From: Deltaproteobacteria bacterium | GTDB taxonomy: Bacteria; Desulfobacterota; Desulfobacteria; Desulfobacterales; JAUWMJ01 | Length of the DNA: 45,980 bases | Reading direction: 5' to 3' | Assembly (NCBI GenBank): GCA_030638575.1 | Contig: DAOWEJ010000004.1 | Span: forward strand, 1-45,980 | In this document: one piece after another, positions 2,514 to 45,635 of the stretch | Layout of the letters: each line of letters begins with the position of its first letter | Numbering within the stretch: position 1 is the first letter of the stretch | Translations under genes and position numbers: made by a program | Notes under the pieces: generated by a model | Seen by the model: the letters and a program-made list of their open reading frames with translations, nothing else | What the model was told of the DNA's origin: nothing | Database searches by the model: none

Positions 2514-2649
2514 CCTGCAATCCTCATGAAAAATTAACAGGGATGTTCGATGATGCACGACCTTTTTCTTTTTGCCATGAATCTGATTTATTTTATTCCC
2601 GCCGGTTTGTCCGGATGGTACAGCTGATATTCAAAACGCATGTTAAATT

Positions 2650-2663
2650 TTAACATATGTTAA
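2650..2663. promoter_or_regulatory. perfect 14-bp AT-rich palindrome, possible operator
   Basis: TTAACATATGTTAA is a perfect palindrome in the 441-base gap between the cytochrome operon and the next gene, about 290 bases before that gene's ATG. It could be a regulator site, but a chance AT-rich palindrome is possible. A GC-rich imperfect hairpin (CCGGCCC paired with GGGTCGG, about 2693-2723) follows and could end transcription of the cytochrome operon, although it has no clear T-run. I see no gene in 2514-2954. Confidence 0.3.
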
Positions 2664-2954
2664 GATTATGCTTTTAACCATTTTAACAATTACCGGCCCA
2701 GGGTCTAACGATCTCCGGGTCGGCTTCTTCTGGAACAGACGATACGGGGTTCGAAATATCAATTAATTTTGAAGATAACTATTTTAAATTATATGGAAAT
2801 TATATTCTTCCCCTGGAGGATGTGATTTTATTTTAATGCCGGGGCAAAAATGGCATCAGTTTTGCTCACTATATAGGAGCTATGAGAGGGATTTGGTCAT
2901 AACGTTCGGAAATGCAACTTATTAACAATCTCCATACCTAAGCGAGGGATCAAA

Positions 2955-3659
2955 ATGGAAAAAACTATTTTCAATAATCCACCGAGTCGTATCACAGACA
3001 TCGTGGGATTGAAACAAAGCGGCGCAGCCGTCACCTGTCGGACCTCATTTGAAATTCTGCCGGTGGATTTCCAACATAGGGACAATCCGTTTCAGGCCTA
3101 CATCTTTCTCTGCCGTTATAACGGTGCAATCGACGGCAAAGAATATGACTTCCGAAAATGCTACGCACGCGGCTGCCCACATAACCTGTGCCCACATGTT
3201 TCCCAGGCCGTAATGATTGCCAACCGGTACCTCCAAAGGGATTATCACAAGCTGGAACAAGCCGGGATAGAGATGGAAAAAAGCCTGTTTACGCTGGAGG
3301 AGATGACTGTCAAATTTAACGGGTATCAGGAAGAACATGGTCCAATTTTGGCTATTCACGACTATATTAATATCGCCAAAGAGGGTAACGAGGTTGCTGT
3401 GGATGCAAAGCTGGAATTTGTACCTGCCGTAGAGCACTTTGCCAATTATGAAAACCAGATGATCTTTCTGATGATCGACTTTTCCATAACATGCCTTGCA
3501 AAGACACACAATTATGAGCGCTGTCTGGCCTGTTATCCCATGGAAAAGGAAAAGGAAGAGAAACTGGAAAAAATCAATATCGCCAATGAACGCTTAACTC
3601 TGTTGTACGAAGAATTCGATCAGGCAGCAATAAAACATGAAAAAGTATTCTTTGATTAA
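2955..3659 (+). CDS. Cys-rich protein of unknown function upstream of metV-metF
   Basis: A 234-residue soluble protein starts at ATG 2955 after a GAGGGA ribosome site. I do not recognise a named domain. Residues about 70-82 contain a clustered Cys pattern (C-x4-C-x3-C followed by PH), and a second pair CLAC lies near residue 193, so metal or Fe-S binding is possible. The C-terminal 40 residues are highly charged and probably helical (EKEKEEK). There is no signal peptide or membrane helix. It lies on the same strand directly before metV and metF but is separated from them by a strong perfect hairpin, so it is probably transcribed alone or with partial read-through. A role near C1 metabolism is guessed from position only. 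Confidence 0.6.
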   Translation: MEKTIFNNPPSRITDIVGLKQSGAAVTCRTSFEILPVDFQHRDNPFQAYIFLCRYNGAIDGKEYDFRKCYARGCPHNLCPHVSQAVMIANRYLQRDYHKLEQAGIEMEKSLFTLEEMTVKFNGYQEEHGPILAIHDYINIAKEGNEVAVDAKLEFVPAVEHFANYENQMIFLMIDFSITCLAKTHNYERCLACYPMEKEKEEKLEKINIANERLTLLYEEFDQAAIKHEKVFFD

Positions 3660-29037: not shown

Positions 29038-29235
29038 GCAAAGTCTTTAAGTAATTTTCTGACTTATTAAGCTGCTTTCTCTGTAGGTTCTCAAGTGACA
29101 AAATCATCTTACGCTTTCACATAGTCCCTCCCTACCGGCAGCAATTCTGAAATTGAGAACCCTTTACTCAAAGACTATGAATTGTTTGAGTCATTCAATC
29201 AGAAACGTGATTCTTGCAAAAGGAGGGAAATAATA

Positions 29236-32200
29236 ATGAAAAGACATTTAATAACATATGTTTTGGCAATTTTAAGTGTTGCAGTTATTTTGGCCATTCC
29301 GTTTCCTTCAAATTCCGCGGTCTGGACAAACCTTGACCTCTATGGAGGCCAGGTCTATGACATCGCCATTGACCCGGTTACTCCGGATAAAATGTTTGCA
29401 GGAATCTATATGGGGGACGGTCTTTATTTGTCCGAAGATGGAGGAAATACCTGGCAGGGAGTAAATTCAGGAGGTCAAATTCCAGGTGAAGATGAATTTA
29501 AGGACCACGCAGTGTACGCAGTAAAGATTGCACCAAGCGATAATAACGTGGTCTGGGTGGCACACAACTACTGGGTTGAAAAAAGCATGGACGGCGGACA
29601 GACCTGGACTCACATATTTAACAGGGACATGCAGCGGGATTGTACCGATTGCGGTGGTTCTGGTGACGATATGCGTTTTTGCAGGGCTCTTGCTGTTGAT
29701 CCTTCCGACCCCCAGACAGTATTTGTGGGTACATCCGGAGCAGATGGGGCTTTTGGTTTACCGGGAGCTATTTATAAGACCCAGGATGGGGGAGTTACCT
29801 GGAAAAAAATAAACCAGGGAAATGACTTCGATTACACGATTATGGATATCGATATTGATCCTCAGAATAATAATATTATCTGGGCTGTGACAAGCTCCTG
29901 GGGTATTGGGGGCTGGTTCGGCACGCTCTACCGAAGTGAGGACGGGGGAGAGACTTGGACCAACATACATACTTTAGCCGGGGGACGTGTAACGGTTGCG
30001 GTAAAGCCTGATGATTCAAATACTGTCTTTACCGGAGGCGCCTGGGGTATGGAAAGACACTATTTTGATGGTACTGTGTGGCAGTACATCTGGCCGGTAA
30101 TTCCCGAGGATTATCCAAATTTTGGCTGTCGTCTGGCGTGGGACATAGCCTTTGATCCTCAAAATCCGGAAATCATTTATGTGCCCTGGAGAAACACGTA
30201 TTTTGGAGATTATCTTCCAAGGGTTTCAAGAAGTATAGATGGCGGAATCGTCTGGGAGACCTATATTGTGGACTACGAGTTTCAATGCCTCAAGGTCCAT
30301 CCTGCAAACGCCGAGGTTCTCATGGGAGGGGGAATGTATCTTGGAATGAACAAGAGTCAGGACCATGGACAAGGCTGGACTCCTGTTAATGATGGGTTAA
30401 ATGGAGTCATTGTCTATGATGTCCAAAATGGTCCAAATGATTCCACGCACATGCTTGCAGGTACGCTCTCAGGGTTATTTGAAAAAAAACAGGGCCAGGA
30501 CTGGACGCGGCTGCTGCCATATTCAGTCCAGTCGGTTGAGTTTGACCCTGCAGACAGCCTGACATTTTACTCAGGCCTTTATAGCGGTTATGTTGCAAGG
30601 ACAACAGATGGCGGCTTTATATGGGATTACTATTATCTTGGATCGAGTATATTTGACATCACCATCGACACCACTAACACCAATACGATTTATATAGCTG
30701 CAGCAAGCGGGGTTGATCCTGGAAAGATATGGAAGAGTATCAATGGCGGAGATTCATATTCAGAAAAACTGGATGGAGCAAATCTTTCAAATAAAGCATA
30801 CGATTTTAACGTAGTCACAATTGATCCGTTAGACTCCCAGCATATCTTTGCCGGTGGTGGTAATTTTTATTCCCCAAAAGTCTTTGGAGATCTGTGGGAG
30901 AGCACGGATGGTGGAGACAACTGGGTTCGAAACCCACTTAGCCTAAATGACGTAATTGTAAACGACGTGTTGGTTGATCCGGTAAACGCCGATATCATAT
31001 ACGCCGGTTGTGGGTACAGCGGCGGCACATCAGTTCCCCTATATAAGAGCACAGACAAAGGGGTTACCTGGGCTGGATCCTTTGAGGGAATCCCTGATGA
31101 GTTAATTATATTAAAAGGACTCTGGGGCAACTCCGAAACAGATGTATTTGCAGTGGGTTATAATGGCACCGTACTCCACTATGACGGAATCAACTGGTCT
31201 TCCATGACCAGCGGAACGACGGAATTTCTTTATGGTGTATGGGGCAGCTCCGGAATAGATGTGTTTACCGTGGGTTTAAATGGCACCGTAATCCACTATG
31301 ACGGAATAAACTGGTCTTCCATGACCAGCGGAACGATAGAACATCTTAATGGTGTATGGGGCAGCTCCGGAACAAATGTGTTTGCCGTGGGTTACAATGG
31401 CACCGTACTTCACTATGACGGAATAAACTGGTCTTCCATGACCAGCGGAACGACAGAACATCTTGATGATGTCTGGGGCAGCTCCGGAACAGATGTGTTT
31501 GCCGTGGGTGATAATGGCACCGTAATCCACTATGACGGAAACAACTGGTCTGCGATGGCCGGCGGAACGATAGAACATCTTCATGGTGTCTGGGGCGGCT
31601 CCGGAACAGATGTGTTTGCCGTGGGTGATAATGGCACCGTAATCCACTATGACGGAATCAACTGGTCTGCGATGGCCGGCGGAACGACAAGAAATCTAAT
31701 GGATGTTTGGGGCAGCTCCGGAACAGATATATTTGCCGTGGGAAACATGGGCACAATTCTTAACTATGATGGAATCACCTGGTCCGACATGGGGCAAGAT
31801 TCAAAAGAACAGTACCGGGGGGTGTGGAGCAGCTCGGGATCAGATGTCTTTGTCAGCGGGGGTTCAGGGAGCATCCTTCATTACAACGGCAGCACCTGGT
31901 CCTTCATGAGGCCCGAGGGGAGCTGTGATAATGCTGTTGTAGACATGGAATTTCATAATCAGGATAATAATGTACTGTATGCTGCCAGCTTTGGAGCAGG
32001 AGTGTACCTTTCCCCCAACCAGGCCGGAAAATGGCTTAATTTGGGAACACCGGAACATCATGTGTTTGCCATTTCAACCGGTTCTCTTTATGCCGCTACC
32101 GAAGACGGGGTCTATCAATGCACAGGCACTGGTGTTATTGCCGGGGATGTAACAGATGCCGGTAATCAATCGGTCATTGATGGTGCAACTGTCTTTAATG

Positions 32201-32496
32201 ATCTGGGAGCAACGACTATCAGCGTAAATGGAGAATACATGATGGTCTCCCCGGCTGCTGCAAGCTGTATGGTTACTGCCATTAAAAACGGTTATATTAA
32301 TAAATCTGTTGATAATGTTATTGTTTACGGTGGAGATATTACCTGGTTAAATTTTGCTATGGAAGCAGGTAGTTCCACCCCGCCACCAGATGGTGACGGT
32401 AACGGCGGCGGTGTGTGTTTCATAAAAACCGCAGCTATAGACTTTACAAGTGATGAGAAACGATTGATGTATGCATGGCCCTTCATTAATTTTTAG
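29236..32496 (+). CDS. large secreted Asp-box / seven-repeat beta-propeller protein
   Basis: The 1086-residue protein starts at ATG 29236, after AGGAGGG; a longer frame upstream lacks support. Residues 1-28 are a signal peptide. The first part (about 30-620) carries Asp-box loops of the SxDGGxTW type (SEDGGNTW, SMDGGQTW, TQDGGVTW, SEDGGETW, STDGGDNW, STDKGVTW), as in sortilin/sialidase-like propellers. From about 627 to 898 there are seven 39-residue repeats of the form VWGSSGTDVFAVG-NGTVIHYDG-NWS. A carboxypeptidase-regulatory-like segment follows (GVIAGDVTDAGNQSVIDGAT), then a Pro/Gly linker and GGGVCFIKTAA, a shortened relative of the CFIATAAYGS tails common on deltaproteobacterial surface proteins. 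Probably a cell-surface or extracellular binding protein. Confidence 0.82.
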   Translation: MKRHLITYVLAILSVAVILAIPFPSNSAVWTNLDLYGGQVYDIAIDPVTPDKMFAGIYMGDGLYLSEDGGNTWQGVNSGGQIPGEDEFKDHAVYAVKIAPSDNNVVWVAHNYWVEKSMDGGQTWTHIFNRDMQRDCTDCGGSGDDMRFCRALAVDPSDPQTVFVGTSGADGAFGLPGAIYKTQDGGVTWKKINQGNDFDYTIMDIDIDPQNNNIIWAVTSSWGIGGWFGTLYRSEDGGETWTNIHTLAGGRVTVAVKPDDSNTVFTGGAWGMERHYFDGTVWQYIWPVIPEDYPNFGCRLAWDIAFDPQNPEIIYVPWRNTYFGDYLPRVSRSIDGGIVWETYIVDYEFQCLKVHPANAEVLMGGGMYLGMNKSQDHGQGWTPVNDGLNGVIVYDVQNGPNDSTHMLAGTLSGLFEKKQGQDWTRLLPYSVQSVEFDPADSLTFYSGLYSGYVARTTDGGFIWDYYYLGSSIFDITIDTTNTNTIYIAAASGVDPGKIWKSINGGDSYSEKLDGANLSNKAYDFNVVTIDPLDSQHIFAGGGNFYSPKVFGDLWESTDGGDNWVRNPLSLNDVIVNDVLVDPVNADIIYAGCGYSGGTSVPLYKSTDKGVTWAGSFEGIPDELIILKGLWGNSETDVFAVGYNGTVLHYDGINWSSMTSGTTEFLYGVWGSSGIDVFTVGLNGTVIHYDGINWSSMTSGTIEHLNGVWGSSGTNVFAVGYNGTVLHYDGINWSSMTSGTTEHLDDVWGSSGTDVFAVGDNGTVIHYDGNNWSAMAGGTIEHLHGVWGGSGTDVFAVGDNGTVIHYDGINWSAMAGGTTRNLMDVWGSSGTDIFAVGNMGTILNYDGITWSDMGQDSKEQYRGVWSSSGSDVFVSGGSGSILHYNGSTWSFMRPEGSCDNAVVDMEFHNQDNNVLYAASFGAGVYLSPNQAGKWLNLGTPEHHVFAISTGSLYAATEDGVYQCTGTGVIAGDVTDAGNQSVIDGATVFNDLGATTISVNGEYMMVSPAAASCMVTAIKNGYINKSVDNVIVYGGDITWLNFAMEAGSSTPPPDGDGNGGGVCFIKTAAIDFTSDEKRLMYAWPFINF
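31117..31930 (+). repeat. seven tandem 117-bp coding repeats
   Basis: The codon block GATGTGTTTGCCGTGGG or close variants recurs at 31141, 31258, 31375, 31492, 31609, 31726 and 31843, always 117 bases apart. The middle five units are nearly identical; the first and last are more diverged. The high identity points to recent unit duplication or gene conversion inside the propeller gene. Confidence 0.9.
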
Positions 32497-32689: not shown

Positions 32690-32754
32690 TATTAATATAC
32701 GAGTTAAGATATTGCTGCATGCACAACTGAACGTATTATTGAAAGGTGGATGAA

Positions 32755-34104
32755 ATGAATAATAAAAGGAGGTTTTGCTATTGTATCATATTTACCGGAC
32801 TTGCTATTCTCCTTTTTTTAAATAATGAGCTTTGGGCTGCTACACTCTTTCAACAAATGGGAATTTCTTCTTCACCCAACCCTGTAGGGTCCGGAGCAAG
32901 AGCAATGGGAATGGGCGGGGCATTTATTGCCATTGCCGATGATGCTACGGCAGCCTCCTGGAATCCGGCAGGTCTCATCCAGTTAGAAAAACCCGAGCTG
33001 TCAATGGTCGGAGCGTATCTCAACAGAAGAGAGGAATTTTCTTCGGATAGCCATCCTGAAATTAATAATACCGGGGAAGTTGATGACGTCAACATAAATT
33101 ATTTCAGTGTTGCTTATCCTTTTCATTATTTTCGTAACATAGTGGTTTCTGCTAATTATCAACGGCTTTATGAATTTGAGCGTGGTTTTGATTATCGTTA
33201 TGACTTATCTGGTGCGGGCCTGGATCTTTTACAGGACAAACACTTCAATCAGGAAGGTTCTGTGGGCTCTCTCGGGTTGGCTGCTGCGATTGAGATAACA
33301 CCCGACCTTTCTTTTGGGGCCACCTTAAACATCTGGACAGACAAGTTATTATGGAAAAACGGATGGAAAGAAACCTATTCAGAACATGGTGTTGGGACTG
33401 TGGGAGGTAATCCGGTCACCATTGATACAAACATTACCGACAAATATTCCGGTTTTAGTGGCGTTAATGCAAATTTTGGTTTCCTGTGGAACATAACCGA
33501 GTACCTCGCGCTCGGGGCCGTCGTTAAAACGCCTTTTGACGCCTCTATTGACCACGAATTCAGCTTCACACAAACAAGTGTATTTGGTCCTCCTTTAAAT
33601 ACTACCGTAACAAATCATCAGACTATAAAGGAAAACGTGGAGCTTCGTATGCCTTTATCATACGGCCTCGGGTTTGCCTGGAGGTTTTCAGACACATTTA
33701 CCATAGGTCTGGACGCTTACAGAACCGAATGGAGCAAATATATTTTAACCGATGGTCAAGGCAATGAATTTAGCCCTATAGATGGCCGGCCAAAAAACGA
33801 ATCCGATATCAAGGACACCTCTCAAATCCGAATCGGCGGGGAATTTCTATTTGTCATGCCAAAAAGGAACATGGTCGTTCCGGTCAGGGCAGGCCTTTTT
33901 TATGATCCAGAACCATCACACGGAAAGATTAATGATTTTTATGGGTTTGCCGTTGGATCGGGAATAGCCTATAAGCAATTCATTTTCGATGCAGCCTACC
34001 AATTTAGGTGGGGAAGGAATATAGATACCGGTGATTTAATTGCCGGTTCAGAGGCTGATTTAACTCAGCATTCGTTCCTTGTTTCAATGATTTATCATTT
34101 TTAG
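32755..34104 (+). CDS. FadL/OmpP1-like outer-membrane beta-barrel protein
   Basis: The 449-residue protein has a signal peptide (hydrophobic residues about 10-25, cleavage near LWAA) and the family N-terminal block GARAMGMGGAFIAIADDATAASWNPAGL, followed by alternating beta strands and a C-terminal strand ending YHF, typical of outer-membrane barrels. FadL-type proteins import hydrophobic molecules; others of the PorV/PorQ type assist secretion. ATG 32755 is chosen over GTG 32746 because AGGTGG precedes it. The lipoprotein-like gene follows after 90 bases on the same strand. A predicted ECF promoter precedes it, linking it to the sigma factor gene 3.6 kb downstream. Confidence 0.82.
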   Translation: MNNKRRFCYCIIFTGLAILLFLNNELWAATLFQQMGISSSPNPVGSGARAMGMGGAFIAIADDATAASWNPAGLIQLEKPELSMVGAYLNRREEFSSDSHPEINNTGEVDDVNINYFSVAYPFHYFRNIVVSANYQRLYEFERGFDYRYDLSGAGLDLLQDKHFNQEGSVGSLGLAAAIEITPDLSFGATLNIWTDKLLWKNGWKETYSEHGVGTVGGNPVTIDTNITDKYSGFSGVNANFGFLWNITEYLALGAVVKTPFDASIDHEFSFTQTSVFGPPLNTTVTNHQTIKENVELRMPLSYGLGFAWRFSDTFTIGLDAYRTEWSKYILTDGQGNEFSPIDGRPKNESDIKDTSQIRIGGEFLFVMPKRNMVVPVRAGLFYDPEPSHGKINDFYGFAVGSGIAYKQFIFDAAYQFRWGRNIDTGDLIAGSEADLTQHSFLVSMIYHF

Positions 34105-34194: not shown

Positions 34195-36216
34195 ATGAAG
34201 AAGTCGATACGATCAGTCCTCTTTCTTATTTTATTTTCCTTATCAATATTATCACTTTGGTGCTGTGCCGAACCTTCACGGAAGCCCGCTTATTTAAAAG
34301 ATGGCAAAGAATATGGCAAAGTCAGCGGAACTTTCAGGCATCGCTGGTGGAACTACTATGAGCGCGCGCTCTCTTTTACTGAAGGAAAATATTATAGCAA
34401 TGCGATTTCGGATCTTAAGGAAGCTATCCAGCAACGGGAAAAAGATCAACGCATGGCCCGCACTTACGGGATGCACTTTATTGATTACTTCCCTCACAGG
34501 GAAAAAGGTATAGTCTATTATGAAACGGGTAATCTGGAAGCAGCAAAAGAGGAGTTAGAATTATCATTACGCCATTATCCGAGTGCAAAGGCCAGATATT
34601 ACCTCGATCAGGTCCGGAAGAAATTGATTTTTCGAGAAGGAAAGGCCGTATCACCGCCCTGGCTCCGGCTGGATTATAAAGCCGGTGAGATCTGGACATG
34701 TGACGATCCAGTGATAATTTCCGGTGTTGCAGAGGACGTCCACTTTGTGTCGGCCATTAACATCAAAGGGCTGCCTCTTTTCCTTGAAGGTTCAAAAAAG
34801 CAAATATCCTTTAGAAAAACCTTGAGACTATCTCAGGGACTACATTCAGTTGAGATTAGGGCGGAAAATCTTGCTGGAAAGGTTTCAAAAAAGAAAATCC
34901 TTTTCCACGTAGATAGACAGGGACCTGTTATTACTATAGAGGATGTCAGGTTTAATAAGGACAAAGCAAAAAAAATTGTCACTATCAAAGGCTCTGTTTA
35001 TGATATCTCTGATGTTTTTAGCTTAACTATCAATGATAGAGAAATTCTTGATAGAAAAGGCAATGAGGTTTTTTTCACTGAAATAATAATCACAGATAGA
35101 GACAGTTTAAAGTTGGCAGCACGCGACAGACTGGGAAACCAGACGTCAGCCCAACTCCCGCTGAAACAGCGCATAGCTGGTAAAGCGCCCATAATGCTCG
35201 CCGATACAGGTTCAAGTTATCAGGCCATTCTTATTGCAGGCCTTTTTGGACCCAGGGATGCAAACCCTCCAGTCATTAAGCTTAAGGGATGGACTGATAC
35301 ACAAACCGTTTTCTTGGAAAAGATTTTTCTTGAAGGCCAGGTCAGTGATGAAAACCAGATTGTAAGTCTTACAATCAATAAAGCTCCCATACTTCGTCGC
35401 ACAGGCCCCTATATTTTTTTCAACCACGTGATAGAACTTAAAGAAGGGAAAAACACAATCGTAATTGCTGCAAAGGATGACGCCGGCAATACGGCAATTA
35501 AGAAAATCACCGTCATAAGGCGGATTCCTAAAGCACTTCAATTGAATGAACGGTTAAGTTTGACAGCATTGCCGTTTGAGCAGAAAGGAGCTGTTTCCAA
35601 GGCAAGCCTTGCATTTCAGGATAACCTGATCGATGCCCTGGTCAATCAGAATCGTTTTCGGGTAGTTGAAAGAGATAGTCTTGATCTGATCTTGCAGGAA
35701 CAAAAACTGAGCCGTACAAAACTATTTGATAGGCATACAGCCCTGCAACTTGGAAGATTAACGGCTGCTCAGGCGGTTATTACCGGAAGTATCATTGAAA
35801 CTCGTGCAGGCATTGAAGTCGTAGCCAGGATGATAGATGCTGAAACATCCGAAATCCTTGCGACAGAAGATGTCTTTGATAAAAACAGGGACCTTCCAGC
35901 CTTAATGAATCTTGCCGAAGGAATGGCCATTAAATTTCATATAGAATTTCCATTAGTAGATGGCCTGATTATTAAGTCCACGGGGGAATATATATTTACA
36001 ACTCTAGGACAGGATGTAATTAAGCCCCAAAGAAGGATTATTGTTTACCGGGATAAACAAATAAAACATCCTTTAACAGGAAAAGTGCTTGGAGTAGAAA
36101 TGCAAATCATTGCTAACGCCATTGTTACACAGGTGCAGTCTGAAATCTCAAAGGCCGAGTTGATAGAAAAAAAACATCAGCTTATCAGTAATCTGGACAA
36201 AGTAATAACTAAATGA
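34195..36216 (+). CDS. exported TPR / Ig-like / CsgG-FlgT-like envelope protein
   Basis: The 673-residue protein starts with a signal sequence ending in LSLWCCAE; the Cys pair suggests a lipoprotein, but the lipobox is not standard. A TPR-like region (about 35-150) is followed by three Ig-like modules with endings such as LAGKV, RLGNQT and DAGNTA (about 165-250, 255-330, 370-445). The C-terminal third (about 460-600) is CsgG-like: ALPFEQKGA, FRVVERDSLDLILQEQKLS, ITGSIIET, and a last FlgT-like beta segment. The same C-terminal module closes the CHAT fusion protein. The TGA stop is the first three bases of a palindromic repeat. ATG 34177 is an alternative start. It is likely co-transcribed with the FadL-like gene. 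Confidence 0.75.
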   Translation: MKKSIRSVLFLILFSLSILSLWCCAEPSRKPAYLKDGKEYGKVSGTFRHRWWNYYERALSFTEGKYYSNAISDLKEAIQQREKDQRMARTYGMHFIDYFPHREKGIVYYETGNLEAAKEELELSLRHYPSAKARYYLDQVRKKLIFREGKAVSPPWLRLDYKAGEIWTCDDPVIISGVAEDVHFVSAINIKGLPLFLEGSKKQISFRKTLRLSQGLHSVEIRAENLAGKVSKKKILFHVDRQGPVITIEDVRFNKDKAKKIVTIKGSVYDISDVFSLTINDREILDRKGNEVFFTEIIITDRDSLKLAARDRLGNQTSAQLPLKQRIAGKAPIMLADTGSSYQAILIAGLFGPRDANPPVIKLKGWTDTQTVFLEKIFLEGQVSDENQIVSLTINKAPILRRTGPYIFFNHVIELKEGKNTIVIAAKDDAGNTAIKKITVIRRIPKALQLNERLSLTALPFEQKGAVSKASLAFQDNLIDALVNQNRFRVVERDSLDLILQEQKLSRTKLFDRHTALQLGRLTAAQAVITGSIIETRAGIEVVARMIDAETSEILATEDVFDKNRDLPALMNLAEGMAIKFHIEFPLVDGLIIKSTGEYIFTTLGQDVIKPQRRIIVYRDKQIKHPLTGKVLGVEMQIIANAIVTQVQSEISKAELIEKKHQLISNLDKVITK

Positions 36217-36389: not shown

Positions 36390-37004
36390 ATGAAGCATTT
36401 GACAGACCAGACCCTTCTGGCCGGATGTATTTCCGGTAACAGGCTCACACAGGAAGCATTCGTAAAGCGGTTTTCCAACCTTGTTTATACATCAGTTCAA
36501 TATATATTAAAGGCCAGAAATATTTCATACTGCCGGTCTGACCTTGAGGATCTGCATAATACTATCTTTGTTAAGCTTTTTGAGAGAGGATGTAAAAAAT
36601 TAAGGCAATACAAAGGGAAGAATGGGTGCAGTCTTTCCTCCTGGATCAGGCTTATAGCGATTCGAACCGTCCTAGATCACATCCGTAAAGAGCGCACTGA
36701 TGCCTTGAACTGGAAGGGAAGAGCTTTGTCGCTCGATCCCTTTATTAACATAAAAAGCAAAACACCTGAGATATGGACTCTGATAAACAAGACACAACAG
36801 TTTAATCTGATCCGAGAAGGGCTCCGCTCCTTGTTACCAAGAGACAGGCTTTTTATAAAACTCCACTGTCTGGAAGGACTGTCCATCAGTGAAGTGGCGG
36901 GTATGCTGAGAATATCTGAAGGAAACGCCTACTCACTAAAACATCGGGCAATCAAGCGACTAAAGACAAAAATTGACTTAACTACGGAAGATATCACTTC
37001 ATAA
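36390..37004 (+). CDS. ECF-type RNA polymerase sigma factor
   Basis: The 204-residue protein shows sigma region 2 (about residues 20-105: DLEDLHNTIFVKLFERG and SSWIRLIAIRTVLDHIRKER) and region 4 (about 140-195: LRSLLPRDRLFIKLHCLEGLSISEVAGML and a helix-turn-helix with NAYSLKHRAIKRLK). Regions 1.1, 1.2 and 3 are absent, as in ECF sigma factors. It would guide RNA polymerase to promoters such as TGCAAG-N16-CGTC, found twice in this window. ATG 36390 has no good ribosome site, so translation may be weak. The anti-sigma gene starts 100 bases after its stop, across one of the predicted promoters. Confidence 0.87.
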   Translation: MKHLTDQTLLAGCISGNRLTQEAFVKRFSNLVYTSVQYILKARNISYCRSDLEDLHNTIFVKLFERGCKKLRQYKGKNGCSLSSWIRLIAIRTVLDHIRKERTDALNWKGRALSLDPFINIKSKTPEIWTLINKTQQFNLIREGLRSLLPRDRLFIKLHCLEGLSISEVAGMLRISEGNAYSLKHRAIKRLKTKIDLTTEDITS

Positions 37005-37010
37005 TTCACA

Positions 37011-37036
37011 TGCAAGAAAAATCGATTTATTACGTC
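37011..37036 (+). promoter_or_regulatory. predicted ECF sigma promoter of the anti-sigma/CHAT operon
   Basis: TGCAAG (37011-37016) - 16 bases - CGTC (37033-37036), again TGCAAGAAA-N12-ACGTCTAT. It lies just after the sigma gene stop and 71 bases before the anti-sigma ATG. It would let the sigma factor activate its own inhibitor and the CHAT protein, a usual ECF feedback layout. Confidence 0.65.
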
Positions 37037-37103
37037 TATAATAAGTAAGGGCTAAGGGTTCACGAAACATCTGTAACCATAACCGAATAGATTGGAGCAT
37101 ACG

Positions 37104-37772
37104 ATGAAAACAAAATGTAACACAGAAGAAGTCCTGGCAGGTTATGTGGAAGACCGTCTTTCCGATAAAGAGCGGTCGAAAGTCGAGCACCACCTTGCCT
37201 TCTGTGATACATGCCTGCAAGAGGTTGTGGTTGCTAGAAAAATAATTCATGGCTCAGAATTTTTTGAGACAGATACTGTGCCGGATGATGTAACTAAGCG
37301 CGCCATCGAAGCCATTAGGGTGATCAGGGGTAATTCATTGCTTGACGGAATTTCAATATATTTGAACCTATTGTTTTCCAAATGTATAGACACATTAATC
37401 TTGTTCTGGCCATGGAAAACACCTGGACTTGCACCTGTGCGCGGCAGCAAAACGGTTATTGCAAAAGATTTGATTTTACTTAAAAAATCCTTTTCTGATT
37501 TGGACGTGGAGATTGAAATCGAAAAAAGAGACCAGGATAAAGCGTCTATTAGAGTTATGTTGTTGAGAGATAACGCTCCCAAAAAGCCCATTAGAGTTAC
37601 CCTTTTCAAAATGGAACGGGAAGTGGCCTCTTTCCCTCTGAACAGATCGGCTAAGCTATTTGAGGAAATACCGTTTGGGCACTATGTGCTGGTATTTACT
37701 AGAAAGGGAATAAAGGCTGGAGAATATTCATTCGAAATCAAGGAAACTCGTTATGAAAAACAAAAAGACTGA
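37104..37772 (+). CDS. zinc-finger (ZAS/zf-HC2) anti-sigma-type protein
   Basis: The 222-residue protein begins with an anti-sigma zinc domain: CNTEEVLAGYVEDRLSDKER, then HHLAFCDTC (H-x3-C-x2-C, about residues 30-38). A moderately hydrophobic segment near 80-100 (GISIYLNLLF ... LILFWPW) contains Lys and Asp and is not a clear membrane helix. The C-terminal half is beta-rich with a prealbumin-like FEEIPFGHYVLVFTRKG-IKAGEYSFEI segment. It probably binds the neighbouring sigma factor. ATG 37104 follows TTGGAG. Its last 20 bases overlap the start of the CHAT fusion gene, so the two are co-translated, which suggests direct interaction; it may be the CHAT protease's substrate. Confidence 0.8.
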   Translation: MKTKCNTEEVLAGYVEDRLSDKERSKVEHHLAFCDTCLQEVVVARKIIHGSEFFETDTVPDDVTKRAIEAIRVIRGNSLLDGISIYLNLLFSKCIDTLILFWPWKTPGLAPVRGSKTVIAKDLILLKKSFSDLDVEIEIEKRDQDKASIRVMLLRDNAPKKPIRVTLFKMEREVASFPLNRSAKLFEEIPFGHYVLVFTRKGIKAGEYSFEIKETRYEKQKD

Positions 37773-40700
37773 TAAAAATGGTTCCGGGTCGAGCAATATC
37801 GAAAAAATACTTAAACAACGGGAGCACCTTGAACAGATCCTGAAGGAAAAGTACCGTAAAAAAGTAGTTATTCTTTTCACGGATATCTGTGGTTACACAG
37901 AATATATTGATAAAAGAGGCGATATCAGCGGTCGGGCTTTGCTCGTGAAGCACAATAGCATTTTATTGCCGATTGTTGAGGAAAACCAGGGAAAAGTCAT
38001 CGAAATCATCGGAGATGCAGTAATGGCGTCTTTTTCAAACTCATTGGACGCAGTAAAGAGCGCAATTGCAATCCAGAAAAGACTTAAGGAATACAACCTT
38101 GAGACGGAAGCGGCAGATAGAATCCATGTGAAGATTGGGATAAATACCGGTAAAGCCCTGGTGGACGAAAAGGCAGTCTTTCAGAGCCTTACTGGAGCTG
38201 TATCAAATGTTGCTTCACGCATCCAAGCCCAGGCTGGGAAGGATCAAATTCTTCTTTCTAAATCTGTCTACAGCCACGTCAGTGGAAGCGAAGATATCCT
38301 GTGCAGATTTCACAGCAGAGTTAAACTAAAAGGGAAGTCCGAGTCATTGGAACTTTACAGGTTAGTGTGGCAGGACGAAGAGGCTGTCCTGGAAGCTGAG
38401 CCAAAGATTCGGCTTCACGAGAAACCATTGGAGAAAAAGGAAAAGCAACTTCCAAATGTGCTCCACCTTGAGGTTACGCGGGTTGGAGATCGTTTGAAGA
38501 TGAGTGTTTATGAAAGAATTAAAGGCGATGAGAATACCATCCGCCATTATGAAGAAATCACGGTTTCTATGAGTTTGATCCAGAAGAGATGCAAAGATCT
38601 GGTAGATATATTGAATAGCGCAAATCGAAAAGGCAGAGTGTCTCGTGAAGTTATGGTTAGACTGCGAGAAGTGGGGCAGGTCCTACACGACGAGTTGCTT
38701 ACTTTAAATGTAAAGGACAGATTAAAAAAGACCTTTGCCGAATATCTGCGCCTGCATATTGATGACCAGCTTGTCCATATTCCATGGGAATTGCTTAACG
38801 ATGGTCAGAAATTCCTGTGCCAGAAGTTCAATATGGGTCGGCTTGTAAAAACTCGTCAGACACTCTTGGGTGTAAAAAGCCGTGCATTAGCCCGTCCTCT
38901 AAAGATGCTGATATTGGCTGACCCTGACGGAGATTTAAAAAGAGCATACGAAGAAGGGACCCAAATACGTGATTATATGGACCAAAACAGAGAGTTTATC
39001 AACGCAACTCTGCGTTCCGATAATATTGTGGCAGATTTGATAAAACAAAAGATTAGAAACTTTGACATGGTCCACTTTGCCGGCCATGCGGATTACAATC
39101 CGCAAAAACCGGAAGAAAGTGGATGGCGGCTGAGCGGTAGTAGCTTTAGTGCCAGAGATATTGCAAAAATGGCTGGAACGGCGACCATGCCTGCACTTGT
39201 TTTTTCAAACGCCTGTCAGTCTGCCCGTACCGATGAATGGACACTTCAAGAATACTTTCAAGATAAACTTTTCGGACTTGCCAATGCTTTTTTACTGGCA
39301 GGTGTAAAACATTATGTCGGGACCTTTTGGGAGATACTGGATGAACCAAGCAGACTTTTTGCACTTGAATTCTATAAGCACATATTTTCCGATGTAACCA
39401 TCGGTGAAGCTATCCAACAAGCCAGGAAAGCCCTGATCAATCAGTATGGAGAACAGACTATAGTCTGGTCAAGCTATCTTTTGTATGGAGATCCCACTTT
39501 TAATTATATGGATCAGATAAAAGACCAAAAGCAAAAGGAGGAGGTAGAGTCGCCCAATGTTGAAAGCTCTGCAGCAAAAGTTAGGACCAGGGAGGAGGTA
39601 ATTGACTTTACCGATAAAGAGGATAATAAAAAAAGCCGGACGTGGTGGACTATAGCTGCTGGAATCGTTGTATTGGCTGTTGTGATCTTTTTGCTATCCC
39701 CCTGGTTTTTAAAGAGAAACGCGAAAGATTTTGAACAAAAGGCTATGGCCTATTTTAAGGCTGGAGAATATATAGAAGCTATCAAGACCTGCAAAGTTCT
39801 TTACGAAAATAATCCTAAACGAAGTTTGGCATACTTGATCTTAGGCAATATTCATTTTCTTGAAGGGGATTTAGGAAAAGCGAAATGGCAATATGAAAAG
39901 GCATTCAAAGCCGAACAGGGGTCTGATGCTGAGAAATCAGAAGCATTGATCAGACTCGGCAGAATAGCTTCTGTTGAGAATAAGCCTTACCAGGCTCTGG
40001 ACCTTTACCAGCAGGCGGCTCAACTTATGCCTGAGAAATGGCAGCCATATGTCTCTCAAGCCATAATACAGGAACGCCGGGGACAGTATGATGATGCCCT
40101 CAAGTCTCTTTGCAGAGCCCGGGCCCTTTCTCCTGATGATCGCAGTATTGAAGCAATTGCAAATGAAACAAGAAACAAAGCCGTTTTTCTCAAAGATAAG
40201 GAAAAACGAGATAGAATTGACAGACTTGTAAAAGAACTCCTGAATAATTTTAATAAATCTGCCTCCCATGCCCTTTGGGACGGCTGGACCTCTCTACCCC
40301 TGACTGTTTGGATAATGGATTTCAGGAGCCGGGGATATGGTTTGCAGGAAGGAGAGGCAAAGCTTATAACTTACGGAATAATGCAACAGTTGGTTGAAAA
40401 ATCCAGAGTGCAAATTATAGAACGGACTATACTGGACAAACTTTTAGAAGAATTGAAGCTTAGCACCTCAAAGCTGGTGGATAAGGGTACAGCTCTTTCT
40501 CTTGGAAAAATTATGGCCGCCAGGGTGATTTCAACAGGGCTGATCGTCCATAACAGAGCTCAGACTCAGGTAGCAGTCCGCCTTATTGAAACTGAGACTG
40601 GCCGGATAACGGCATCTATCAGTGAAGTTTTCTCCAATCCTGTTATGCCTTCTGAGATCGCAGAAAAATTGTCGAGTATTCTTTTGACAAGGCTGCAAAC

Positions 40701-40938
40701 TATTTATCCACTTCGGGGTAAGGTTACGAGAGTTAGTGAGAAGGAAATTGTGCTCAATATCGGTCAAAAACATGGCGTTCGAATCGGCCAACAATTTAAA
40801 GTTATTGATACGGATTGGATATTAGAGGTGAATACGGTTCAAACCGATTTGAGTATCACAACAGTACAAAAAGGCCATGGGATTTTAAAGGCTGATCTTC
40901 GTGTAGAACTCCAACAGGTTAAGGCTCCGGATAGCTAA
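37753..40938 (+). CDS. class III cyclase - CHAT protease - TM - TPR - CsgG-like fusion
   Basis: A 1061-residue multidomain protein. Residues about 35-190 are a class III nucleotide cyclase with metal ligands Asp44 (FTDICGY) and Asp88 (IIGDAV) and transition-state residues Asn152 and Arg156 (SNVASR); Glu84 and Ser145 replace the usual adenine-selecting Lys and Asp. Residues about 360-590 are a CHAT (caspase-like) protease with His445 (HFAGHAD) and Cys488 (FSNACQS), both intact, ending YGDPTF. A membrane helix follows at about 631-653, then TPR repeats (about 656-800) and a CsgG/FlgT-like domain (about 845-1061). Cyclase and CHAT are thus cytoplasmic and the TPR/CsgG part periplasmic, if the positive-outside reading of WW...KRN is reversed accordingly. 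It likely senses envelope state and signals inward by cyclic nucleotide and proteolysis. Its ATG lies inside the anti-sigma gene. Confidence 0.85.
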   Translation: MKNKKTDKNGSGSSNIEKILKQREHLEQILKEKYRKKVVILFTDICGYTEYIDKRGDISGRALLVKHNSILLPIVEENQGKVIEIIGDAVMASFSNSLDAVKSAIAIQKRLKEYNLETEAADRIHVKIGINTGKALVDEKAVFQSLTGAVSNVASRIQAQAGKDQILLSKSVYSHVSGSEDILCRFHSRVKLKGKSESLELYRLVWQDEEAVLEAEPKIRLHEKPLEKKEKQLPNVLHLEVTRVGDRLKMSVYERIKGDENTIRHYEEITVSMSLIQKRCKDLVDILNSANRKGRVSREVMVRLREVGQVLHDELLTLNVKDRLKKTFAEYLRLHIDDQLVHIPWELLNDGQKFLCQKFNMGRLVKTRQTLLGVKSRALARPLKMLILADPDGDLKRAYEEGTQIRDYMDQNREFINATLRSDNIVADLIKQKIRNFDMVHFAGHADYNPQKPEESGWRLSGSSFSARDIAKMAGTATMPALVFSNACQSARTDEWTLQEYFQDKLFGLANAFLLAGVKHYVGTFWEILDEPSRLFALEFYKHIFSDVTIGEAIQQARKALINQYGEQTIVWSSYLLYGDPTFNYMDQIKDQKQKEEVESPNVESSAAKVRTREEVIDFTDKEDNKKSRTWWTIAAGIVVLAVVIFLLSPWFLKRNAKDFEQKAMAYFKAGEYIEAIKTCKVLYENNPKRSLAYLILGNIHFLEGDLGKAKWQYEKAFKAEQGSDAEKSEALIRLGRIASVENKPYQALDLYQQAAQLMPEKWQPYVSQAIIQERRGQYDDALKSLCRARALSPDDRSIEAIANETRNKAVFLKDKEKRDRIDRLVKELLNNFNKSASHALWDGWTSLPLTVWIMDFRSRGYGLQEGEAKLITYGIMQQLVEKSRVQIIERTILDKLLEELKLSTSKLVDKGTALSLGKIMAARVISTGLIVHNRAQTQVAVRLIETETGRITASISEVFSNPVMPSEIAEKLSSILLTRLQTIYPLRGKVTRVSEKEIVLNIGQKHGVRIGQQFKVIDTDWILEVNTVQTDLSITTVQKGHGILKADLRVELQQVKAPDS

Positions 40939-41794: not shown

Positions 41795-42262
41795 ATGAGA
41801 TTGAAAGTGATAATTGTAACTATGATGATTTTTTTGAGCATGGCTTTTATCTGTGCATGCAGCGAAGAAAAGACAGCTTCGCTTGAAGGAAATGAGGATA
41901 TTGTAGCCGTTTTACAAAAAACACTTAAATGTCTTGATAAACCTGAAGTTAATAGGGAGATTTATGCAGATAATGCGATATTAAAGCAGGAAGACGGTTG
42001 GACAGGGCATATGCTTGAATTCAAAGGGTTGAAGGAAATCGAAAATTGGAGAAAAGATAGAAGCAGGATCTGGCGTCGAACTGGCTTATCCATCAGCAGC
42101 ATCGAAAAGGAAGCTGGTATAGCTCATGTTAAATATAAGATTGACATTCAGGGCGTTCATACCGATGCGGAATTCAGTGTGCTTAGTTGCTCAGCCGAAA
42201 TGTTAAAAATTGGACCATCATGGAAAATTAAGGAAGAAATAGCTAAGATTAAGCATAGGTAA
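41795..42262 (+). CDS. small lipoprotein, possibly NTF2/SnoaL-like
   Basis: The 155-residue protein starts at ATG 41795, seven bases after a perfect AAGGAGG. Residues 1-21 form a lipoprotein signal ending in a good lipobox (ICAC, Cys22 followed by SEE), so it is anchored in the inner or outer membrane. The rest (about 33-150) has an alpha-beta pattern with a YADNAILKQEDGW segment and a closing WKIKEE strand, suggestive of SnoaL/NTF2-like folds, which bind small molecules or act as accessory domains. No enzymatic residues can be assigned. It converges with the second cyclase gene. The 280 bases after it show no gene. Confidence 0.7.
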   Translation: MRLKVIIVTMMIFLSMAFICACSEEKTASLEGNEDIVAVLQKTLKCLDKPEVNREIYADNAILKQEDGWTGHMLEFKGLKEIENWRKDRSRIWRRTGLSISSIEKEAGIAHVKYKIDIQGVHTDAEFSVLSCSAEMLKIGPSWKIKEEIAKIKHR

Positions 42263-42542: not shown

Positions 42543-45500
42543 TCACTTCAGCCCTGCCTTGCGCAACGCTTCAAAGAAAAAATCCCTATCCGCTTGATTT
42601 TTATAGGGCAATCTCTTTGCATAAGACAGAGCAGAAAATTTTGGATTTATCTTAAGGACTTCTTCGGCTTCAGCACGGGCCGCATCTCTAAGGCCTGCTC
42701 GACCATATATGGCTGCACAGGTCACATGTGTCAATATATCATTCGGTGCTTGATCGAGCCCTTTCTTACATGCCGTTATAGCCTCATCATATCTTCCCGC
42801 GTATAGGTAGTTCAGCGCTAAGCCCCGAAAGTACCAGCTTGGAGGGATAGGGTTGAGCCGTACCGCTCGTTCAGAATATCGAATTGCTTCTTGGTTCCTA
42901 CCCGCAAGTCTGAGAACGTAACTCATCCACATATGGGCATTAGCGTCATTGGGAGCGAGTTCAAGTGCCCGCTCAATTTTGGTAATGCCCTCCTCATGCT
43001 TCCCGGTCATTGTATAGAGCCAGCCCAATTGGCAGTGGGCTATACTGTAAGAGTCATCCAAGGCGATGGCTTTCTGATTCAGTTCCATAGCCTTTGCAAT
43101 GGATTTCTTAGGGGACTTACTTAAGCCAAAGAACACATCCATCCAGTAGGTTGCACCCAGGAGTCGGTATGCAGCAGCATACTGTGGATCCAATACAATG
43201 ACATCCTCAGCAATCTTCCGGGCCAGTGCATTATCCTCTTTAGTTATCCTTAATAAAGTTTCGCTTCCTTGAATGTACTTTAGGTAGGCCTGAAGATTTT
43301 CTGTGCCTTTGGCGCGCAAACGAGCACTCTCCCCTACCGTTAAATTCACTCGGAGCTCTGCTATGATCCTCATAGTGATCTCGTCTTGTAGAGCAAATAT
43401 ATCTTTCAGCTCCCGATCATAGCGTTCCGCCCAAAGGTGATGGCCTGTTTGAGCATCGACAAGCTGAGCAGTTATACGCACTTTGTTACCGGCCTTGCGG
43501 ACGCTGCCCTCCAGGACATAACGTGTACCTAATTCTCGGCCTACTTGTTGAACCATCACCGATTTGCCCTTATACGTAAATGATGAGTTGCGAGCAATCA
43601 CGAAAAGTTTTGGAGTCTTGGACAGAGCTGTGATAATTTCCTCGGTAATTCCATCACTGAAGTACTCCTGCCTGGGATCATCACTCATGTTGGTAAAAGG
43701 CAGCACGGCTATGGAGGGCTTATCAGGGAGAGGTAGCGGTGCTTTGTCAGGTAGCCCGGCCTTGCGTAGGGCAACAACATAGCGCTCTATATCGGCTCTG
43801 TTTTTATAGGGGAGGGTCTTTGTATAAGACTCAAGAGAAAATTTGGGATTTATCCTGAGAACTTCTTTAGCTTCAGCGGCAGCCTCCGCTTGACGATCTA
43901 ATGAAATATAACAAGCTGCAAGAAAAGCGTGGGCAACCAAGTAATCGGGGTTAACATGCACTGCCTTCTTGAATGTTTCAACTGCTTTGTCATATTGGCC
44001 AGTCATGAAATATGAGCGACCTAAAAGCCAAAAATAGTAGGTCGGAGGGAAAGGTGCGAGGCGCATTGCCTTCTCCGCAAATCCAATGCTTTCCTCCCAC
44101 CTACCCGAACATCCTAAAGCCCCCGCCATAAAGATATTGTTGTGAGCCCCATTGGGATTGAGAGAGATAGCACGCTCCGCTTGAGCGATATTCTTTTCAT
44201 ACTGACGTTTCAAAAGGTAGATGCCACCAATCAAGGTGTGGGCATAGTCCAAGGTGTCATCCAGCTCGATAGCCTTTTGCGCGTATTTAAAAGCCATCTT
44301 CATAGATTTGGCACGAGATTCAACCCATCCAAACCTCGCATCATTCCAGTGAGTCCAACCCACCATCGAGTAGGCATTTGCATACCCAGAATGCAAGGCA
44401 ATAGCTTGCTCGAATAACTGCCGTGCTCGAGTATTATCCTCTTTCGTATAACGATAATTATAACTCATTCCCTCAAGGACTTTTTCATACGCCTTAAGGT
44501 TCGTCGTCGTACCTCTATGCCAAAGGCGGGCTTGCTCGCCTTCTATGAGCTCTATTCGCATAGCTTTTGCGATTTCCAGGGTAATGTCATCTTGTATGGC
44601 GAATATGTCTTCCAGCACTCGGTCGTAGCGCTCCGACCAAACGTGATGTCCTTTTATCGCATCGATTAGCTGGGCAGTGATCCGGATCCGATCGCCTGCC
44701 TTCTGGACACCGCCCTCTAGGACATACCGCACCCCCAATTCCTCACTCACCTGCTGAACCTTCACCGGTTTGCCTTTGTAGGTAAACGTTGAGTTGCGGG
44801 AAATTACAAATAAATTTGGGATCTTAGATAGACCGTTTATGATTTGATCGGTAAGCCCATCGCTAAAATACTCTTGCTTCGGTTCTCCGCTCATGTTTTC
44901 GAAAGGCAGCACCGCAATTGATGGTTTATCAGGGAGTGGAAAGGCCATTTTCTCAACCGATGCAACTTCCATAGGAGGAGGAAAATAGAAGTGCCAGATA
45001 GCGAAAGCTCCAGCCACCACAATTAGCACAACCGCTGAGGCTACGGCTGCCCAACGCCATTGTTTTTGCTTTGGCCTCTCTTCTCCGATAACCTTGTCAG
45101 CATATTCGGGCTCCATCAGCACCTTATAGACACGCACAGGCTCAGCAATGTTTTTTATCGAGTGCTCACCCAAATACTCATACCCAACGTCCAGCTTGTT
45201 CTTGACCTGGTCGAAGGCTGTTCTTGAGATACAGATTCCTCCACCTTCTGCCAGCCCCTCCAACCTGGCCGCGATATTTACACCATCTCCATAGATAGTC
45301 TCTTCTTCCTCGATCACATCCCCGAGATTGATACCGATGCGAAATTCCATTTTCTTGTTTTCAGGAAGTTCGTTATTCCTCAGCTTGAGTTCCTTTTGGA
45401 CCTTTACAGCGCATCGAACGGCATCCACCACACTGGGAAACTCGGCGAGCAAATTGTCACCCTTAGCGTCGACTACCTTGCCGTTTTGCCCCTCGATAAG

Positions 45501-45635
45501 ACCTGTCATCACCTCACGGTATCCAGTGATAGTGCGGACAGTGGCCTCTTCATCATCTTCCATAAGGCGACTATACCCTTTAACATCTGCGCTGAGAATT
45601 GCGGCCAATTTACGTTTGGCCTGCTTTTCATTCAT
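42543..45635 (-). CDS. class III adenylate-cyclase-type protein with duplicated TolB-like/TPR halves
   Basis: The 1030-residue protein has a cyclase domain (about residues 8-170) with metal ligands Asp17 (SADVKGYS) and Asp60 (AKGDNLL), plus Asn and Arg in GVNIAARLE. A basic stretch and a membrane helix follow (about 193-216). Then a TolB-like/FlgO-like module plus TPR repeats occurs twice: KPSIAVLPFENMSGEPKQEY (about 238) with TPRs to about 625, and KPSIAVLPFTNMSDDPRQEY (about 640) with TPRs to the end. Both TPR halves finish with YKN-RAD/QAD segments. This is a known architecture for bacterial cyclases that sense through a periplasmic TolB/TPR part. The strong start (GGGGGTG before ATG 45635) is certain. 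Upstream is a promoter followed by a hairpin-terminator leader. Confidence 0.87.
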   Translation of the reverse strand: MNEKQAKRKLAAILSADVKGYSRLMEDDEEATVRTITGYREVMTGLIEGQNGKVVDAKGDNLLAEFPSVVDAVRCAVKVQKELKLRNNELPENKKMEFRIGINLGDVIEEEETIYGDGVNIAARLEGLAEGGGICISRTAFDQVKNKLDVGYEYLGEHSIKNIAEPVRVYKVLMEPEYADKVIGEERPKQKQWRWAAVASAVVLIVVAGAFAIWHFYFPPPMEVASVEKMAFPLPDKPSIAVLPFENMSGEPKQEYFSDGLTDQIINGLSKIPNLFVISRNSTFTYKGKPVKVQQVSEELGVRYVLEGGVQKAGDRIRITAQLIDAIKGHHVWSERYDRVLEDIFAIQDDITLEIAKAMRIELIEGEQARLWHRGTTTNLKAYEKVLEGMSYNYRYTKEDNTRARQLFEQAIALHSGYANAYSMVGWTHWNDARFGWVESRAKSMKMAFKYAQKAIELDDTLDYAHTLIGGIYLLKRQYEKNIAQAERAISLNPNGAHNNIFMAGALGCSGRWEESIGFAEKAMRLAPFPPTYYFWLLGRSYFMTGQYDKAVETFKKAVHVNPDYLVAHAFLAACYISLDRQAEAAAEAKEVLRINPKFSLESYTKTLPYKNRADIERYVVALRKAGLPDKAPLPLPDKPSIAVLPFTNMSDDPRQEYFSDGITEEIITALSKTPKLFVIARNSSFTYKGKSVMVQQVGRELGTRYVLEGSVRKAGNKVRITAQLVDAQTGHHLWAERYDRELKDIFALQDEITMRIIAELRVNLTVGESARLRAKGTENLQAYLKYIQGSETLLRITKEDNALARKIAEDVIVLDPQYAAAYRLLGATYWMDVFFGLSKSPKKSIAKAMELNQKAIALDDSYSIAHCQLGWLYTMTGKHEEGITKIERALELAPNDANAHMWMSYVLRLAGRNQEAIRYSERAVRLNPIPPSWYFRGLALNYLYAGRYDEAITACKKGLDQAPNDILTHVTCAAIYGRAGLRDAARAEAEEVLKINPKFSALSYAKRLPYKNQADRDFFFEALRKAGLK

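Follow-up and report, generated by a model that had tools for sequence, protein, structure and literature searches.

What does a CHAT protease do when it is encoded directly behind a sigma factor and its putative inhibitor? The question is raised by a locus of a Deltaproteobacteria bacterium (Desulfobacterales; assembly GCA_030638575.1, contig DAOWEJ010000004.1, positions 1 to 45,980, the whole 45,980-nucleotide (nt) stretch being hereafter called the window), in which three genes stand in a row. The best explanation for the trio, which we regard as rather probable, is a sigma switch based on regulated proteolysis, in which the CHAT protein would cut the anti-sigma protein.

36390..37004, plus strand: extracytoplasmic function (ECF) sigma factor, 204 amino acids, regions 2 and 4, conserved first gene of the trio (Pfam Sigma70_r2 and Sigma70_r4_2; NCBIfam sigma70-ECF)
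37104..37772, plus strand: soluble anti-sigma protein, 222 amino acids, made of a ZAS zinc finger, helices to about residue 101, a linker and an immunoglobulin (Ig)-like beta domain at 115-212 (zf-HC2; AlphaFold2; homologue alignments)
37753..40938, plus strand: protein of 1061 amino acids joining cyclase, CHAT, transmembrane (TM) helix, TPR and CsgG parts (Pfam; relatives)

Conservation of the trio

The row had been read in the initial annotation from the letters alone, and its coordinates, its strand and the overlap of exactly 20 nt (37753-37772) shared by the open reading frames (ORFs) of the anti-sigma and CHAT proteins were all confirmed by ORF and Pfam analysis. Only regions 2 and 4 were recognised in the sigma factor by Pfam and NCBIfam, as in ECF sigmas. 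ATG 37104 is more likely than TTG 37092 as start codon of the anti-sigma gene. Pfam spans in the large protein are Guanylate_cyc at 34-197, CHAT at 306-580 (2.6e-35), TPRs at 663-800, and CsgG from 877 onwards. No described system with this exact fusion had been known to the first annotator. No description of the family was found in the open-access literature, and searches for CHAT together with anti-sigma returned only papers on Craspase and ECF54. The fusion is not unique, since about 12 relatives share its domain order.

A first search covered 58 relatives and GTDB contigs. CHAT relatives occur in many genomes, and nearly all have sigma and anti-sigma genes directly upstream; several genomes carry the module in 2-4 copies. 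Within the same order 146 genomes were sampled, with the CHAT subfamily delimited at E <= 1e-70; a full-length anti-sigma gene adjoins 39 of 40 CHAT genes, the exception being G052:C2, and CHAT is present in each of the 19 genomes that have a full-length anti-sigma. Partial anti-sigma matches in G049 and G008:C968 sit at contig ends, and at the latter a CHAT fragment is visible. About half of the loci of the order sample had gone into the profile, and the fair test is given by 20 held-out loci (L155-L174): CHAT lies beside anti-sigma in 19, and the remaining one, L173, stops at a contig edge. In a phylum sample of 395 genomes CHAT was found in 18 and full-length anti-sigma in 11, all of which have CHAT, though the two are unlinked in G133. 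Probabilities calculated for this co-occurrence take no account of relatedness. Overlap or near-contact of the two ORFs is the rule across loci. Pairwise distances of sigma, anti-sigma and CHAT are correlated (r 0.57-0.68, against a permutation maximum of 0.33). The linkage of CHAT and anti-sigma is not due to chance. The idea that CHAT acts on the co-encoded anti-sigma would have suffered had CHAT homologues mostly occurred without sigma and anti-sigma genes; within the order one CHAT gene only lacks the anti-sigma neighbour, although early-branching members of the CHAT subfamily lack it as well.

A compact version of the trio was found far from the Desulfobacterales, in the Leptospira interrogans plasmid pLiSL25 (L175:3062-6086), where a sigma gene, a gene for a 242-amino acid protein and a gene for a 403-amino acid CHAT protein lie in a row. 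The middle protein, devoid of a zinc finger, is matched by the latter half of the anti-sigma profile, which aligns a Met-Arg-Ser triplet to the linker Arg described below. The CHAT protein has the catalytic dyad, the PWE motif and the Asp of the putative substrate pocket, and no cyclase, TPR, CsgG or membrane part. Though a single case, the retention of sigma, linker Arg, beta domain and protease across phyla fits a protease and its substrate. The Leptospira CHAT gene is missing from the gene table of the plasmid. Other CHATs retrieved by the plasmid search (Rhizobium, Agrobacterium) have no sigma gene beside them.

The candidate protease and the candidate cut site

Two segments are central to the prediction.

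37437..37445, plus strand: predicted scissile site Val112-Arg113/Gly114 in the anti-sigma linker (Arg conservation; linker confidence, as predicted local distance difference test (pLDDT), below 50; aligned Arg in the Leptospira homologue)
38668..39492, plus strand: CHAT protease domain, residues 306-580, with His445, Cys488 and a putative pocket for the P1 Arg formed by Glu346 and Asp530 (Pfam, alignments, AlphaFold2, Foldseek)

The anti-sigma protein carries the zinc ligands Cys5, His30, Cys34 and Cys37 (zf-HC2, alignments); the pattern H-x3-C-x2-C with an upstream Cys/His, next to an ECF sigma gene, is that of class I ZAS proteins. No family-wide TM helix emerges from the alignment, and the protein should thus be cytosolic. 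In the AlphaFold2 model, built on 31 homologues (pLDDT 82.9), a helical zinc-finger part with helices reaching residue 101 is followed by a linker (101-112) with pLDDT below 50, and by a beta sandwich spanning 115-212. A sequence search of PDB yielded only ZAS domains and, where the beta domain is concerned, weak noise, with no Csx30 chain among the matches; Foldseek relates the beta domain only to generic Ig-like sandwiches (best E 5e-3).

Mean identity among the 31 homologues is 22%, but Arg113 is kept in 30 and shifted one residue later in the remaining one, within a consensus [VIL]-R-[GSN]. Arg was found at the aligned position in 19/20 held-out proteins, and in 49/51 homologues taken together. 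It ranks among the most conserved residues of the protein, even though the segment where it sits is the least ordered. Protease sites look like this, with a hydrophobic-Arg-small motif on a disordered stretch that joins two folded parts, and from alignments and model CHAT is predicted to cut the anti-sigma protein at Arg113/Gly114.

The CHAT domain had been called intact because of His445 and Cys488, rightly so, since the dyad, the catalytic pair of CHAT and clan CD proteases, is invariant in 28 relatives. In a set of 44 CHAT domains only three (L142, L144 and L147) have an incomplete dyad, all of them without an anti-sigma gene, and the dyad of every anti-sigma-linked CHAT examined is complete. 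Glu346 (PWE motif) was found in 44/44 domains, Asp530 (FWEILD motif) in 42/44. The two acids match by motif the modelled P1-Arg ligands of separase, a clan CD Arg-specific protease in which Glu917, beside Trp916, and Asp1082 are modelled as binding the P1 Arg (PMC4626109). The separase fold is also that of CHAT, and separases follow Csx29 (8eey, E 6e-11) and precede SAVED-CHAT and DdvA among Foldseek matches of the CHAT model (pLDDT 87.2). In contrast to separase, the present CHAT is bacterial and predicted to be membrane-anchored, and Arg specificity is suggested for it by motif.

Envelope side, proposed switch and competing readings

The C-terminal half of the CHAT protein and the genes on its upstream side may point to the cell envelope.

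39580..39588, plus strand: Val610-Arg611-Thr612 between CHAT and the TM helix, a motif that may serve for autocleavage or as a pseudosubstrate (motif counts)
39649..39705, plus strand: predicted single TM helix, N-side in, residues about 633-651 (hydropathy; charge bias)
39739..40152, plus strand: TPR repeats, predicted periplasmic (Pfam)
40381..40938, plus strand: CsgG/FlgO/LpoB-like C-terminal domain, predicted periplasmic, resembling the CsgG domain of the neighbouring lipoprotein (Pfam, relatives)
34195..36216, plus strand: neighbouring TPR/Ig/CsgG protein with lipobox-like N-terminus, conserved beside the module (Pfam, loci of relatives)
32746..34104, plus strand: neighbouring FadL/PorV-like outer membrane protein, conserved near the module (Pfam, NCBIfam, loci of relatives)

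The N-side of the TM helix is the more positive one in 41/52 homologues, which suggests that CHAT is cytoplasmic and the TPR/CsgG part periplasmic. Envelope sensing by the latter, as initially proposed, is plausible, being consistent with this charge bias, with the periplasmic type of the TPR and CsgG domains, and with the lipoprotein and outer membrane protein encoded nearby, for which we infer a possible sensor role. A gene for a protein of about 570 amino acids upstream of several loci had also been considered as a sensor and was rejected, because its product is RecJ at two loci (L030, L033) and unrelated proteins are encoded at two others (L046, L054). An Arg followed by a small residue occurs in the CHAT-TM linker of 40/52 proteins, against 19.8 expected after shuffling, and of 14/17 held-out proteins, against 6.2; the motif near Arg611 might mark a site of self-cleavage, or act as a pseudosubstrate.

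Domains, gene order, linkage and the conservation of dyad, pocket acids and linker Arg are observed; we infer the topology, the protease activity, its Arg specificity, the cut and the release of sigma in the switch favoured here, which would operate as follows. The soluble anti-sigma protein would capture the ECF sigma through its zinc-finger domain. The periplasmic TPR/CsgG part would control CHAT, which would be anchored in the inner membrane on the cytoplasmic side; the adjacent lipoprotein and outer membrane protein would probably assist in this control. Upon an envelope signal, activated CHAT would cut the anti-sigma protein after the linker Arg, the Ig-like domain would be parted from the portion that binds sigma, and sigma would be set free. 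CHAT might also cut itself at Arg611, and free the protease-cyclase half from the membrane.

Several observations weigh against this scheme. CHAT occurs without sigma and anti-sigma genes in L046, L135, L136, L137 and L139, and in the early branches L138 and L140-L142, and must therefore have, or have had, another substrate. The Glu of PWE and the Asp are largely kept in CHATs devoid of the dyad, and are thus suggestive, but no proof, of Arg specificity; their equivalence to separase residues is one of motif rather than of residue-level structural alignment. One held-out anti-sigma protein has Lys at the position of Arg113. A different function of Arg113 is conceivable, as the residue borders the first beta strand and might make a contact with sigma or CHAT. 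As to the loci lacking sigma, in L135 (the same as L033) the CHAT, TPR and CsgG parts are separate ORFs and RecJ adjoins, which suggests a decaying module, or else errors of assembly. The CHAT tree fits a core of CHAT with CsgG-lipoprotein and FadL neighbours that may have gained, or repeatedly lost, the sigma and anti-sigma genes: the label changes 8 times on the tree, against 13 after shuffling, the root of the tree not being fixed.

The same neighbours suggest another reading, which we consider unlikely, in which the sigma/anti-sigma pair controls the genes of CHAT, CsgG lipoprotein and FadL protein, and CHAT cuts itself or an envelope partner, the trio being a regulator with its regulon. 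ECF operons are often autoregulated (PMC10028731), and CHAT is accompanied by the CsgG-lipoprotein and FadL genes, in the absence of sigma and anti-sigma, in L136 and L138-L140. Yet, a search for a promoter motif common to the regions upstream of the CsgG-lipoprotein (33) and FadL (17) genes returned only A/T runs above shuffles, and in Leptospira CHAT lies in the trio without such neighbours. Moreover, neither the conserved linker Arg, nor the fact that the anti-sigma was not found in sampled genomes without CHAT, would be explained. Less likely still, CHAT could free sigma by binding the anti-sigma protein, or be inhibited by it, with no cut involved and Arg113 as a docking residue. The conserved pairing would agree with this, as would the CHAT domain carried by the Myxococcus anti-sigma DdvA and the persistence of Glu346 in dyad-less CHATs; the invariance of the dyad in anti-sigma-linked CHATs speaks against it. 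That the zinc-finger protein is an independent redox sensor, merely sharing an operon with an unrelated CHAT, is hardly credible, for although soluble zinc anti-sigmas often are redox sensors (PMC7406223) and the four zinc ligands are present, the additional Ig-like domain and the linker Arg are features of the CHAT-linked family, and the Leptospira member retains Arg, beta domain and CHAT neighbour without a zinc finger.

The proteolytic switch may be part of a broader scenario, put forward here tentatively and with some doubt. According to it, Arg-specific, self-cleaving, membrane-tethered CHATs would constitute widespread sigma switches unrelated to CRISPR, with two outputs for each envelope signal, namely self-release, with or without a cyclase, and the cut in the anti-sigma linker; type III-E CRISPR would be an RNA-guided offshoot of an older CHAT/anti-sigma pairing.

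The second activity of the large protein is more questionable.

37852..38343, plus strand: class III nucleotide cyclase domain, residues 34-197 (Pfam, alignment)

The metal ligands Asp44 and Asp88 and the transition-state Asn and Arg are kept in the alignment, but the domain differs from its relatives in having Glu84 in place of the substrate Lys, Ala141 in place of Asp, and a 4-residue insertion (QSLT, 144-147). In class III cyclases the substrate residues are Lys/Asp for ATP, and of the Glu type for GTP. The closest PDB match, 5d0g, is Ma1120-like and likewise has Glu at the Lys position; the cyclase of the window may use GTP, or be inactive. CHAT-TM-CsgG proteins of about 650 amino acids form a clade that lacks the cyclase and is always accompanied by the anti-sigma; the cyclase is thus dispensable to the pairing. 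The cyclic-nucleotide output initially proposed gains little from these data, given the cyclase-less clade, and is doubtful for this copy because of the two substitutions and the insertion.

Other genes in the window and at related loci deserve mention. On the minus strand at 42543-45635, convergent with the CHAT gene, lies the gene of another cyclase protein; it also contains TPRs and two TolB_N/FlgO-like segments, and its two halves look duplicated. In L140 the gene immediately upstream of a sigma-less cyclase-CHAT gene (2501-3217) encodes, as judged by eye, a CRP-like cyclic-nucleotide-binding protein, which might read the cyclase there. In L054 (7448-9967) a cyclase-TPR-CsgG protein without CHAT is encoded beside a sigma-54 activator and a CsgG lipoprotein; the sensor part appears to swap outputs. 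At 29182-32496 the window encodes a secreted Sortilin/Vps10-like propeller protein whose repeats are near-identical (GTTEHLxGVWGSSGTDVFAVG...). It may belong to the regulon, as homologues lie beside the module in L045, L089 and L136. Downstream of the CHAT gene, and on its strand, 41795-42262 encodes a small predicted lipoprotein without any match in Pfam or NCBIfam.

CHAT proteases are common in bacteria, and few have a known substrate. The present family offers a co-encoded substrate candidate with a prediction at the level of residues. Up to four paralogous protease/anti-sigma pairs per genome make a natural set for specificity studies, and the system is a way to test how CHAT cleavage of anti-sigma proteins arose outside CRISPR.

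Comparison with known systems

In type III-E systems the TPR-CHAT protease Csx29 cleaves the inhibitor Csx30, and relieves the inhibition of CASP-sigma (PMC10028731). The analogy drawn in the initial annotation, by which the CHAT of the window may cut the co-translated anti-sigma, holds in part: in both cases the gene of an ECF sigma is accompanied by those of a CHAT protease and of an inhibitor, predicted here, of that sigma, the closest PDB folds are Csx29, the top Foldseek match, and separase, and the conserved linker Arg has its counterpart in conserved S1-type acids of CHAT. However, the present CHAT would be activated from the envelope and not by RNA, and the predicted inhibitor, with its ZAS and Ig-like parts, was not recognised as Csx30. 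The cut sites of Csx30 vary (PMC11106740), while the linker Arg is near-invariant here. No Cas7-11/RAMP match was found in the source genome, an assembly 76% complete, and PADLOC matched no module protein to a CRISPR model, reporting only a generic cyclase (PycC) and a weak BovA match. With no RAMP protein in the 76%-complete genome, and no Csx30 match, the trio is not a type III-E CRISPR system.

Another parallel is the DdvS-DdvA pair of Myxococcus xanthus, an ECF sigma and a TM anti-sigma with a CHAT domain (PDB 8rot, 8rw5). DdvS is active once DdvA is inactivated (PMC4374960), and drives an antiphage island (PMC12288465). ZAS finger, TM helix and CHAT form one chain in DdvA, whereas ZAS and CHAT are separate genes here; the single chain ties anti-sigma and CHAT functions independently. 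CHAT proteins are also found in the conserved gene context of ECF54, for which proteolytic control has been proposed (PMC8999054), but ECF54 is described as controlled without an anti-sigma, and here a ZAS anti-sigma sits between sigma and CHAT. In DegS-RseA-RpoE, as in the switch favoured here, an envelope signal acts on a protease and the protease on an anti-sigma, whereupon sigma is released (PMC10028731). There, a periplasmic protease acts on a membrane anti-sigma; here, a cytoplasmic CHAT is proposed to act on a soluble one.

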